A stretch of 45,000 nt of DNA. Origin: an uncultured Alphaproteobacteria bacterium (GTDB taxonomy: Bacteria; Pseudomonadota; Alphaproteobacteria; Rhodobacterales; Rhodobacteraceae). Both the position numbers and the translations under genes were made by a program. Below, in pieces: positions 6,032-9,138 of this stretch. The notes beneath the pieces are model-generated. The model did not search any database, was not told the origin of the DNA, and saw only the letters and a program-made list of their open reading frames with translations. Positions within the stretch are counted from its first letter, which is position 1. Each line of letters opens with the position of its first letter. The DNA lies in NCBI GenBank assembly GCA_902537415.1, contig CACBBC010000006.1, positions 1-45,000 of the forward strand, read 5' to 3'.

Positions 6032-6469
6032 GTGGTTCTTTTCTTTGCAAAAAACTATATCAAAGAGATGGTAACGCTGTTTCAAATATTCATAATGATT
6101 TTTATGTTGGTTTCGATCGATGTTGGAGCTTCTCCCCAGTTATTAAATGTTGGTTCCAAAGCCTCTGATCACGGTACTCTTGTACTAGGTCGTTCCACTG
6201 GAATACCTGGCATGTTTGGCCGTTTCACAGTTGTTTTGAATGGTAAAGTTTTAGGGATGCTAGGAGAAAATCAGATAATCAAGAAAAGGTTAATCCCAGG
6301 TCGATACACGCTAACTATCAGGGACGATGTGGAATATCGTAAATTTCTGGGAACGAATATAAGATTTTCAATTAATTCTGGTCAGATTAAGTATTTAATA
6401 GTTAATTCTGAAAAAAAAGCATTTGATTCGCGATACAGAATTGTTGTCAAAAAGCTAAAAAGAGATTAG
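6032..6469 (+). CDS. Exported small beta-rich protein, unknown function
   Basis: Not recognised. A hydrophobic N-terminus ending VSIDVGASPQ looks like a signal peptide cleaved after GAS, followed by about 110 residues dominated by beta strands (FGRFTVVLNGKVLGML, IPGRYTLTIRDD, SGQIKYLIVNS) with a basic tail. The V-x-x-NGK and PGRYTLTI pattern recalls small secreted DUF2846-like proteins that decorate or sense the periplasm, but I would not assign it. The GTG at 6032 gives a long leader. The ATG at 6068 would place the signal peptide right at the N-terminus and is a reasonable alternative. It lies 24 bp upstream of the iron-sulfur cyclase fusion and may be in the same transcript. Confidence 0.55.
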   Translation: MVLFFAKNYIKEMVTLFQIFIMIFMLVSIDVGASPQLLNVGSKASDHGTLVLGRSTGIPGMFGRFTVVLNGKVLGMLGENQIIKKRLIPGRYTLTIRDDVEYRKFLGTNIRFSINSGQIKYLIVNSEKKAFDSRYRIVVKKLKRD

Positions 6470-6493
6470 GCAGGATCTTAGGATTGAGAAATT

Positions 6494-8275
6494 ATGAAAC
6501 TTAAACCCATACCTCATGATGTCGAGAAAGATAAAAGCTACTTTTGGTGTAGTTGTGGAAATAGTAAAAACCAGCCTTTCTGTGATGGCAGTCATGCGGG
6601 TAGTGAATTCATACCCTTAAAATATGTAGCGGAAAAAACAGAAACAAAATATTTCTGCACATGTAAAAGAACACAAAACAAACCATTCTGTGATGGCAGC
6701 CATGATAAATTAGAGACAATCCTTGATGATGCAAAACTCACGGAATTTAAACCTATATCTCATGACGTCGAGAAAGATAAAAGCTACTTTTGGTGTAGCT
6801 GCGGAAAGAGTAAAAACCAGCCTTTCTGTGATGGCAGTCATGCGGGTAGTGAATTCACACCCTTAAAATATGTAGCGGAAAAAACAGAAACAAAATATTT
6901 CTGCACATGTAAAAGAACACAAAACAAACCATTCTGTGATGGAAGTCACGATAAACCAGAAAAAAGTTATAATGATGGAGATCTCTTTTCTGCACTAGTA
7001 CAACCTGACAAGAAAAAAATAGAGGTAGGTGTAAATGAAACAATACTCACAGCATCAATAAGAAACAATATATCTCACTTAAGCGCTTGTGGAGGTACTG
7101 GAAAATGCTCAACTTGCAGAGTTGAAATTACAGAAGGATTAGAAAATTGTTCTACGAGGTCTGATGCTGAGAAAAAGCTATCGGATAAGCTTTCCTTTCC
7201 AGATAACATAAGACTTGCCTGCCAAACCACAATAAGTGGACCTGTTTCTTATAGAAGACTTCTCCTAGACAAGCGAGATTTGAGTAATTCAAATAAATTG
7301 TCCGATACGAAACTAGAGTCTGTTGGTACCATAAGAAATCTGACGGTAATGTTTTGCGATATCAAAGGTTTTACACCCTTTTCCGAAGCGCTTGCTGCTT
7401 ATGACGTGATTTTCATTTTAAATCGATACATCTCTATAATGCGCGAAATCATTATTAAAAATGGTGGAGAGATAAATAATTATATTGGTGATGCAATTTT
7501 GGCTATCTTTGGTCTCAAAGACTCAAGACAACAGACGCTTAGAGCAGCAAACACGGCATTAGAAATGCTACAAGCTATGGACGAATTTAAGGATTATCTG
7601 TCTCAAGCTTACGGTAGAGATTTTGATATACGAATAGGTGTTCATTATGGTGAAGCCATCCTAGGCTCTGTTGGTTTTGGTGAAGACAAGAAATTTACCA
7701 TAATTGGAGACACTGTAAATATTGCTAGTAGAATTGAAGCTATAAATAAAGAGGCGGGAACACGTTTTCTTATTTCCGATGTCGCTTATGAAAGAATTAA
7801 AGATGCTGTTGATGTAAGAAATTTTGTGCGGTTAAAATTAAGGGGATCTAGTAACTTAATTACCTTGCATGAGGTTAGCGGTCTAAATAAAGGTAAGCTA
7901 GTTGATCACTCTGATATTAAAGTAAAAGAGATTGATGGCAATACTTGGATAAGGACTTTGCCTATTAGTGAGCTTGATGTCGGAGAAAAGAAAAAGTTTG
8001 AATATGATGGAAAAGAATTTCTTCTTATAAATCAGGAAGGCATCTTTGCTATTGAGAATATATGCCCCCATATGAATTTACCATTGGACATAGGTCAGAT
8101 TACAGATGAAGGAACTATCTTATGTCCTTATCATAATAGTGAGTTTTGTTTTAGATCAGGTGAAGTGAGAAAATGGGTTGGACTACAACCCAAACAAGTA
8201 GAAAAAGATTGTGAGCCACTTACGGTTATTCCTACACGGGAAGATGATAGCTATATCTGGATTCAGAAACCTTAA
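6494..8275 (+). CDS. Four-CDGSH / 2Fe-2S ferredoxin / class III nucleotide cyclase / Rieske fusion protein
   Basis: A 593-residue fusion, probably a cytosolic redox or iron-sulfur-status sensor making a cyclic nucleotide. In order: four CDGSH modules (C-x-C-x8-CDGSH) with ligands C19/C21/C30/H34, C55/C57/C66/H70, C101/C103/C112/H116 and C137/C139/C148/H152; a plant- or adrenodoxin-type 2Fe-2S domain with C199, C205, C208 and C243; a class III cyclase domain (about 278-462) with metal aspartates Asp289 (CDIKGFT) and Asp333 (GDAILAIFG) and transition-state Asn409 and Arg413 (IIGDTVNIASR); and a C-terminal Rieske domain with C524-x-H526 and C544-x2-H547. Thr402 fits the class IIIb purine pocket, but the usual lysine four residues before Asp333 is Asn329, so activity and ATP versus GTP use are uncertain. 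No membrane span or signal peptide is seen. It is followed after 14 bp by a methyltransferase gene. The domain calls are firm; the sensing role is inference. Confidence 0.9.
   Translation: MKLKPIPHDVEKDKSYFWCSCGNSKNQPFCDGSHAGSEFIPLKYVAEKTETKYFCTCKRTQNKPFCDGSHDKLETILDDAKLTEFKPISHDVEKDKSYFWCSCGKSKNQPFCDGSHAGSEFTPLKYVAEKTETKYFCTCKRTQNKPFCDGSHDKPEKSYNDGDLFSALVQPDKKKIEVGVNETILTASIRNNISHLSACGGTGKCSTCRVEITEGLENCSTRSDAEKKLSDKLSFPDNIRLACQTTISGPVSYRRLLLDKRDLSNSNKLSDTKLESVGTIRNLTVMFCDIKGFTPFSEALAAYDVIFILNRYISIMREIIIKNGGEINNYIGDAILAIFGLKDSRQQTLRAANTALEMLQAMDEFKDYLSQAYGRDFDIRIGVHYGEAILGSVGFGEDKKFTIIGDTVNIASRIEAINKEAGTRFLISDVAYERIKDAVDVRNFVRLKLRGSSNLITLHEVSGLNKGKLVDHSDIKVKEIDGNTWIRTLPISELDVGEKKKFEYDGKEFLLINQEGIFAIENICPHMNLPLDIGQITDEGTILCPYHNSEFCFRSGEVRKWVGLQPKQVEKDCEPLTVIPTREDDSYIWIQKP
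6503..6715 (+). repeat. Intragenic tandem duplication, copy 1 (two CDGSH modules)
   Basis: Encodes residues 4-74 of the cyclase fusion. The second copy lies exactly 246 bases downstream. The encoded stretches differ at only four residues (Pro7/Ser, Asn23/Lys, Ile40/Thr, Leu73/Pro), and most of the DNA is identical, including third codon positions, so the duplication is recent or kept uniform by gene conversion. Confidence 0.9.
6749..6961 (+). repeat. Intragenic tandem duplication, copy 2 (two CDGSH modules)
   Basis: Encodes residues 86-156 of the cyclase fusion and pairs with the copy at 6503-6715. About eleven residues, starting TILDDAKLTEF, separate the two copies. Each copy itself contains two diverged CDGSH modules, as in the older double-CDGSH proteins, so the four-module array arose by doubling a pre-existing pair. 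Confidence 0.9.
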
Positions 8276-8289
8276 AAGCAGAGCACGAT

Positions 8290-9138
8290 ATGAAACACAA
8301 AATTATCAACGTAGAACAATCCGAATACTGGAATGAAAAATCTGGACCCAAGTGGGTCAAAAATGAGGATTCATTGAATGAGCGATTATCGATACTAACA
8401 AACGAACTTTTTACTAGAGCGAAGATAAAGGCATCGGATAAAGTTCTAGATATCGGGTGCGGAGGTGGTGATACAACTTTTCGAGTGTCAAAACTATTGG
8501 CTGATGGTGGACATGTCGTTGGAGCGGATATTTCGAAAACTTTGCTTGATCACGCAAAAAGTAAATTTTCAGATATTGATACAATGACATTTGTGCATTG
8601 TGATGCTCAGAATTATTCTTTTGATGAAAAGTACTTTGATAAAGTTATATCTCGATTTGGTGTAATGTTTTTTGAAAGTCCCTCAGAAGCCTTCAAAAAT
8701 ATTCATGGTTCTATGCGGACAAACGGTTCTCTAAATTTTGTGTGTTGGACAAATATGATGGAGAATGAGTTTATAGTTGAAGGTATGGATATTATAACTA
8801 AATATACTGAAAAATTTCTTCCAGAGGTAACAAAAGATCCGGGTCCCTTTGCATTCAGTGACCCTGAATATATTTACGAAGTCTTGGAATCAGCTGGATT
8901 TAAAAGTATAAATATAGATAAGGTTTATACATCTATCTCTACGAAAGACAGCGCCGAGAAAGATGCTGAACTACTGATGGGGATAGGTCCAAGAGCAAGA
9001 ATTTTATCAGAAGAAAATTTATCAAACGAAAAAATCTCAATGATAAAAGATGAAATCATTAAACTATGTGAACAACGACAAAATGAAAAAAAAATTACCT
9101 ATAAGGCATGCCTCAATTACGTATCGGCGAAGAAATAA
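8290..9138 (+). CDS. Class I SAM-dependent methyltransferase
   Basis: A 282-residue soluble protein with the Rossmann SAM-binding motif VLDIGCGGG (52-60), the acidic residue Asp80 at the end of strand 2 (VVGADIS), and a motif II/III region with CDAQNYSFDEKYFDKVISRFG. It begins with EYWNEKSGPKWV, a pattern common in ubiquinone- or small-molecule-methylating family members, but the substrate is not evident. The gene starts 14 bp after the cyclase fusion and reads the same way, so it is probably translated from the same transcript. That pairing suggests its product works with, or is controlled by, the iron-sulfur cyclase. It converges with the kinase-like gene at 9190. Confidence 0.85.
   Translation: MKHKIINVEQSEYWNEKSGPKWVKNEDSLNERLSILTNELFTRAKIKASDKVLDIGCGGGDTTFRVSKLLADGGHVVGADISKTLLDHAKSKFSDIDTMTFVHCDAQNYSFDEKYFDKVISRFGVMFFESPSEAFKNIHGSMRTNGSLNFVCWTNMMENEFIVEGMDIITKYTEKFLPEVTKDPGPFAFSDPEYIYEVLESAGFKSINIDKVYTSISTKDSAEKDAELLMGIGPRARILSEENLSNEKISMIKDEIIKLCEQRQNEKKITYKACLNYVSAKK

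Follow-up and report, generated by a model that had tools for sequence, protein, structure and literature searches.

A single protein encoded in the window, the whole stretch of 45,000 nucleotides of alphaproteobacterial DNA analysed here, combines four CDGSH sites, a 2Fe-2S ferredoxin (Fer2) domain, a class III nucleotide cyclase domain and a C-terminal Rieske domain. Because three kinds of iron-sulfur domain are joined in it to a cyclase, the protein probably passes on redox or iron-sulfur state as a chemical signal. To judge from its homologies, the CDGSH-bearing form is a soluble, re-equipped relative of known Fer2-cyclases and not a wholly new kind of protein.

Gene and domain architecture

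The 593-residue frame opens with ATG and contains no internal stop (Table 1), which agrees with the earlier note on this DNA. All four domain families score above their curated Pfam cut-offs, with 126.2 bits for zf-CDGSH over four stretches, 89.9 bits for Guanylate_cyc, 54.5 bits for Rieske and 40.9 bits for Fer2; no named NCBIfam model comes close to its cut-off for this protein. The ligand positions, together with the Pfam match for each domain, bear out the six iron-sulfur sites and the spacings that the note had described, and with these ligand sites intact, [2Fe-2S] binding is predicted for the CDGSH, Fer2 and Rieske sites. At the threshold used, no hydrophobic stretch of 19 residues occurs in the window protein or in its relatives L033 and L037, and the window protein is thus most likely soluble and cytosolic, not membrane-anchored.

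In the one model of the whole protein (mean pLDDT 67.9, pTM 0.40) the cyclase is recognisable by its fold, which matches the known cyclases Cya2, CyaC and CyaB, but the modelled domain arrangement is not reliable at these values. The best 50 fold matches listed are all cyclases, and none among them confirms the fold of another domain.

Table 1. Features of the cyclase gene and its flanks, in positions of the window.
Feature	Position	Strand	Basis or remark
Upstream gene, weak DUF2846 match below cut-off	6032..6469	+	24 nt before ATG
Whole gene, CDGSH x4 - Fer2 - class III cyclase - Rieske	6494..8275	+	ATG, 593 aa; ORF, Pfam, orthologues
Tandem repeat unit 1 (CDGSH pair 1)	6482..6727	+	246-nt duplication
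CDGSH site 1, aa 19-34 (CSCGNSKNQPFCDGSH)	6548..6595	+	Ligand pattern
CDGSH site 2, aa 55-70 (CTCKRTQNKPFCDGSH)	6656..6703	+	Ligand pattern
Tandem repeat unit 2 (CDGSH pair 2)	6728..6973	+	89% identical to 6482-6727
CDGSH site 3, aa 101-116	6794..6841	+	Ligand pattern
CDGSH site 4, aa 137-152	6902..6949	+	Ligand pattern
Fer2 domain, aa 170-247, ligands C199 C205 C208 C243	7001..7234	+	Pfam, alignment
C219, fifth conserved Fer2 Cys	7148..7150	+	Alignment
Conserved Fer2-cyclase linker, aa 250-279	7241..7330	+	Alignment, dN/dS
Class III nucleotide cyclase domain, aa 280-453 (metal D289, D333; N409, R413)	7331..7852	+	Pfam, alignment, fold
N329, position of ATP-selecting Lys	7478..7480	+	Alignment
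Rieske domain, aa 485-561, ligands C524 H526 C544 H547	7946..8176	+	Pfam, alignment
Downstream SAM methyltransferase gene	8290..9138	+	Pfam; context, not proven part

Distribution of the fusion

A scan of genome_contigs returned 23 loci, 21 of which (L020-L040) are related to the window protein over most of its length; the other two, L041 and L042, have mainly the cyclase in common with it. The full order CDGSH-Fer2-cyclase-Rieske stands in one frame at 18 of the 23 loci, including L040 with an unread base at one Rieske ligand, so that the concern of the earlier note, that no other genome might have the fusion, does not apply. Two family members are cut by contig ends (L024, L029). In the SAR324 assembly L039, stops break up the N-terminal CDGSH part (L039:5983-6388) while the remaining frame is open, and this locus was used only from the open downstream frame (from 6388). 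The record titles name uncultured Alphaproteobacteria, Rhodobacteraceae, Rhodospirillaceae, SAR324, Deltaproteobacteria and one untyped bacterium (TMED198); many isolate names start with AG-, which we take to denote single-cell genomes, the titles being silent on this and some being marked MAG. A chimeric assembly of separate genes was considered and rejected: nothing was seen in its favour, and the fusion recurs in many separate assemblies, and in divergent lineages at 58-69% identity, which leaves that explanation next to no probability. The fusion is sufficiently conserved to be functional.

Within the genus of the window, 13 of the 22 genomes have the gene, counting G010 and G018, whose matches end near a contig end; these genomes overlap the genome_contigs loci and add no further independent cases. 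The only two that are at least 90% complete, G002 (90%) and G007 (91%), are without it. Wider sampling covered 198 genomes of the family, 390 of the order, 385 of the class and 398 of the phylum, with members in common (E limit 1e-80 for family, order and class, 1e-70 for phylum). In these samples the CDGSH form turned up in just two genomes, that of the window and G799, and in the family of G799 it occurs in two of ten genomes, G799 included. Given this patchy presence in the genus and rarity beyond it, the gene is accessory and belongs to some lineages only, which the record titles place in two groups far apart, Alphaproteobacteria and SAR324. An empty-site search in six gene-less genomes of the genus did not yield a clean insertion point; the flanking probe gene was also missing in four of them, including the two most complete, and G004 has the methyltransferase without the cyclase. 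No relative was seen in viral_contigs by pattern scan or in phage records with a one-pair protein as query, and of 164 matching plasmid records none matched over more than 80% of the query.

The counts given below refer to 22 rows of the CDGSH clade, 39 Fer2-bearing rows, 36 soluble rows and three CyaC-type rows. Alignments A1 and A2 leave out L024, L029, L039 and L040, which are truncated, interrupted or contain unread bases, as well as the redundant L025, L028 and L036.

CDGSH pairs and their duplication

The CDGSH (CISD) ligand motif, C-x-C-x2-(S/T)-x3-P-x-C-D-G-(S/A/T)-H, is matched at all four sites of the window protein; the sites of a few relatives deviate at the G or S of the motif (L020, L040). 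The four CDGSH modules that had been reported are present, but they consist of one pair duplicated, and four copies were rejected as a defining trait. Four sites are present in ten of the 22 clade rows and two sites in another ten, the remaining rows being L029, which is truncated by a contig end, and the broken L039. The pattern demands the ligands and hence counts only whole sites, and some counts of two may be underestimates, as short-read assembly can merge near-identical repeats of 246 nt. With a single pair in 10/22 rows, it is one CDGSH pair, and not four copies, that forms the shared core.

The two pairs are 87-97% identical in amino acids in the window protein and five near relatives, with a repeat step of 82 residues; in L026, of the same genus, the figures are 98% and 100 residues, and in L033 and L040, of SAR324 type, 62-65% and 81 residues (L024 was left out of this comparison). 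The four-site forms in these three settings look like separate duplications of the CDGSH pair, or older ones blurred by gene conversion.

The pair itself has counterparts in Class II double-CDGSH proteins, among them human CISD3 (PDB 6avj, E 5e-17) and 3tbn (E 4e-22), whose chains, unlike the fusion, count 92 and 87 residues. Known bacterial CDGSH fusion partners include Fer4_19, Glu_synthase, ferritin-like and Rieske_2 domains, according to the available part of PMC5859297, in the main text of which the word "cyclase" has 0 occurrences. Within the searches made here we saw no other cyclase with CDGSH (NEET) domains. Elsewhere in the window's genome lies a separate CDGSH-like frame of 71 residues (L008, G000:C5:85503-85685), which fits the motif at its first site only.

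Fer2-cyclase core and Rieske domain

The Fer2 ligands follow the spacing C199-x5-C205-x2-C208-x34-C243 and are conserved in 39/39 Fer2-bearing rows; among solved structures the sequence of the domain comes nearest to NDH subunit B3 and [2Fe-2S] ferredoxins. A fifth cysteine, Cys219, is found in 22/22 CDGSH-clade rows and in 34 of the 36 soluble Fer2-cyclase rows (the exceptions being L067 and L068) as opposed to none of the three CyaC-type rows, and possibly acts as a thiol switch or additional ligand. At the other end of the protein both Rieske ligand pairs are complete, C524-x-H526 and C544-x2-H547, and the best sequence matches, to ferredoxin subunits of oxygenases, indicate a Rieske domain of ferredoxin type.

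By its residues the catalytic domain qualifies as a class III nucleotide cyclase, with both metal-binding aspartates (D289, D333) and the transition-state pair N409/R413 in 22/22 clade rows. Its active site is nevertheless not standard. The lysine that marks an adenylate cyclase proper at the first base-selecting position is replaced by Asn329 in 22/22 rows (CyaB has Lys), with Thr402 as its partner at the second, and for this reason cAMP cannot be assumed as the product. Guanylate cyclases carry Glu at the first position and a variable residue, Thr included, at the second, according to the available part of PMC4215837; neither ATP nor GTP can therefore be assumed as substrate. With such a replacement, catalysis and product would not be assured, and the product may be cAMP or cGMP. 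Asn329 is fixed in the clade, yet not exclusive to it, since L043, L049 and L065, all outside the clade, share it; the position is Lys in L044, L045, L047, L067 and the three CyaC-type rows, Asp in L050, L062, L063, L064, L066 and L068, and Leu in L061. A pair of lysines, Lys399-Lys400, is present in 22/22 clade rows; none of the other rows compared has the pair. The nearest PDB sequence is the adenylyl cyclase CyaB, and the top fold match among the best 50 listed is the guanylyl cyclase Cya2, a rank that says little among close scores.

Selection was compared domain by domain in eleven sequence pairs, dropping dS-saturated pairs, pairs with the domain missing in one protein and cells with dS = 0. 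Usable dN/dS values were 0.13-0.18 for the first and 0.04-0.29 for the second CDGSH pair, 0.03-0.18 for Fer2, 0-0.11 for the linker, 0-0.16 for Rieske and 0-0.07, among the lowest of the domains, for the cyclase, so that every domain looks to be under purifying selection. Two of the dropped cells with dS = 0, for the first CDGSH pair in comparisons with L032, had a dN of 0.52 and rest on few codons, because L032 is without that extra pair.

Relation to CyaC and to soluble Fer2-cyclases

CyaC of Sinorhizobium is the closest studied kind of protein. Residues 171-451 of the window protein share 35.7% identity (E 5e-38) with the product of an S. meliloti pSymB gene annotated CyaC, in which a hydrophobic N-terminus is followed by Fer2 and then by the cyclase; the studied CyaC is SMc01818, and the compared gene may be SMc01818 or a paralogue. 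In the available part of PMC10463352, our source for Wissig 2019, CyaC is described with two hemes in a six-helix domain and with indications of a [2Fe-2S] cluster, and its cyclase as responding to the redox state of quinone. CyaC-type cyclases have Fer2 directly N-terminal of a class III cyclase, a core homologous to that of the window protein. The six-helix diheme membrane anchor is absent from the window protein, which instead has two CDGSH pairs and Rieske, as well as Asn329 and Cys219, neither of which occurs in the three CyaC-type rows; these rows contain four, four and seven hydrophobic stretches of 19 residues. A CyaC-like Fer2-cyclase whose N-terminus is hydrophobic (L002) is encoded in the window's genome as well, and L026, L028 and L030 have a CyaC-like gene some 1 kb upstream of the gene for the CDGSH form (L026:3286-4968; Pfam and hydrophobicity were applied to this one of the three). 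The system put forward as undescribed is thus new in part: no description of the CDGSH-Fer2-cyclase-Rieske architecture was found among the matches listed in the open-licence literature, but the core belongs, by homology to CyaC, to known Fer2-cyclases.

Among shorter soluble relatives are Fer2-cyclase-Rieske proteins (L043, L044, L045, L061, and L049 of Rhizobium etli), which have the same domain order, all above the Pfam cut-off, and Cys219, differ in being without CDGSH, and are 38-42% identical to the window protein (L061 40%). Three of them, L043, L044 and L045, come from within the window's own family; we found no studies of such proteins in the open-licence literature. Simpler still are soluble two-domain Fer2-cyclases (L047, L050, L062-L068), which share the Fer2 and cyclase core and show no Rieske or CDGSH pattern in frame, Pfam having been applied to L050 only.

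In a midpoint-rooted tree of the Fer2-cyclase core (25 rows, several long branches; without L022-L025, L028, L029, the CyaC-like genes that lie upstream in L028 and L030, and L061-L068), 16 CDGSH-clade rows group together (support 96/98). The clade is placed beside the soluble Fer2-cyclase-Rieske proteins, with L043 as its sister on a long branch (93/90, below the tool's star), and away from the CyaC-type membrane cyclases, whose three rows are set apart (100/100). This topology suggests a stepwise addition of domains, in which Rieske would have come first, a CDGSH pair next and the second pair last.

Genomic neighbourhood

No conserved operon partner was seen, and the neighbours, 20 of which were Pfam-scanned near family members, vary between lineages and within the genus. 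The DUF2846-like gene adjoins the cyclase gene solely in the window's near relatives and is presumably co-transcribed with it; we treat it as context, not as a proven part. The SAM methyltransferase gene adjoins it in part of the genus and is not required. An enoyl-CoA hydratase-type gene lies 3' of it in L020 (by Pfam) and L031 (by clustering). In L033 the next gene downstream codes for an intradiol-type dioxygenase (L033:7756-8370), and in L035 (L035:5596-5973) and, by clustering, L032 the gene directly upstream codes for a DCC1-like thiol-disulfide oxidoreductase. In the alphaproteobacterial records L037 (L037:4522-9068) and L038 (L038:1423-4904, by clustering) the cyclase gene is flanked by guaB (IMP dehydrogenase) and guaA (GMP synthase), all three on the same strand. 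A PhyH-type dioxygenase gene lies about 4 kb upstream in the window, on the opposite strand.

Of eight Fer2-cyclase loci read in other parts of the phylum, one shows parts of the fusion as adjacent genes: at L066:1495-3878 (-), a gene that codes for a CDGSH pair fused to a glutamate-synthase domain immediately precedes, on the same strand, a soluble Fer2-cyclase gene. The window's genome has three cNMP_binding matches above the cut-off, and these three proteins are possible receivers of the signal.

Proposed function and alternative explanations

We consider it reasonably likely that the protein is a cytosolic sensor cyclase in which the redox or cluster state of the [2Fe-2S] Fer2 domain sets the output of the class III cyclase. 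The best support goes to the idea that redox or cluster state is turned into a cyclic nucleotide, since the Fer2-cyclase core shares homology with that of the CyaC-annotated protein and CyaC is redox-regulated. As in CyaC-type proteins, Fer2 would govern the cyclase through the conserved linker at the start of the catalytic domain. The membrane anchor that delivers electrons in CyaC would be replaced by one or two N-terminal CDGSH pairs and the C-terminal Rieske domain, which may exchange electrons with soluble partners or report cluster loss. A change in Fer2 would then alter the linker and the cyclase dimer, and hence the output of cAMP or cGMP, to be read by cNMP-binding proteins. Throughout this scheme we infer cluster binding, dimerisation, electron flow, the direction of regulation, the product and the target. 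The adjacent CDGSH and Fer2-cyclase genes of L066 and the three cNMP_binding matches also speak for it. Against it, Asn stands in the place of the ATP-selecting lysine, the model leaves the domain arrangement unfixed, the neighbours differ by lineage, with no fixed partner, and the gene is accessory in the genus; the variable CDGSH copy number, in turn, would not suggest a fixed electron wire.

Two other explanations differ from this sensor in the cue or in the product. The cyclase may be redox-set and yet make cGMP, or be promiscuous, a somewhat unlikely option whose probability overlaps with that of the other readings as its content does; the Asn-Thr pair at the base-selecting positions, a second position that includes Thr in guanylate cyclases, the top fold match to Cya2 and the location between guaB and guaA in L037 and L038 all point this way, but guanylate cyclases have Glu at the first position (PMC4215837, part of the text), the nearest PDB sequence is an adenylyl cyclase, and a fold rank among close scores carries little weight. 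Alternatively, and rather improbably, the cyclase could be switched when the CDGSH or Fer2 clusters are lost, oxidised or nitrosylated under iron shortage, reactive oxygen species or NO, with no reversible wire. Cys219, the two or four CDGSH sites, as a tunable capacity might have, and the DCC1-like gene upstream in L035 and L032 are consistent with such a sensor of cluster integrity. In its favour, too, the human NEET CDGSH domain can transfer electrons or a whole cluster, according to the available part of PMC5859297. Fer2 and Rieske domains mostly serve as stable carriers of electrons, however, which argues against it. So does the response of the homologous CyaC to quinone redox state (PMC10463352, in the part available).

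Electron transfer to a monooxygenase or dioxygenase, with the cyclase domain dead or purely structural, would fit the likeness of the Rieske domain to oxygenase ferredoxin subunits and of Fer2 to NDH subunit B3 and ferredoxins, and there are dioxygenase genes in L033 and in the window, though neither is a Rieske oxygenase. Such genes are not neighbours across lineages, with 20 genes near family members Pfam-scanned, a minority of the neighbours, and the invariant catalytic Asp, Asn and Arg (22/22) and low cyclase dN/dS make this function very unlikely. More ambitiously, and with a probability that we regard as low, the protein could be a soluble integrator in which three chemically different [2Fe-2S] types, with six clusters in each chain and twelve in the dimer, together set a cyclase whose changed site (Asn329, Lys399-Lys400) makes cGMP or another product, and in which the CDGSH copy number, through duplications that apparently arose separately at least three times, sets the threshold.

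Implications

The membrane-bound relative, CyaC, is already known; the soluble design seems undescribed in the open-licence literature. The series from Fer2-cyclase through the addition of Rieske and of one CDGSH pair to that of two offers natural intermediates for separating the role of each cluster, and bears directly on the role of bacterial NEET domains. If the sensor cyclase that we favour is real, iron-sulfur state would be tied directly to a second messenger in bacteria that are, by their record titles, partly marine.
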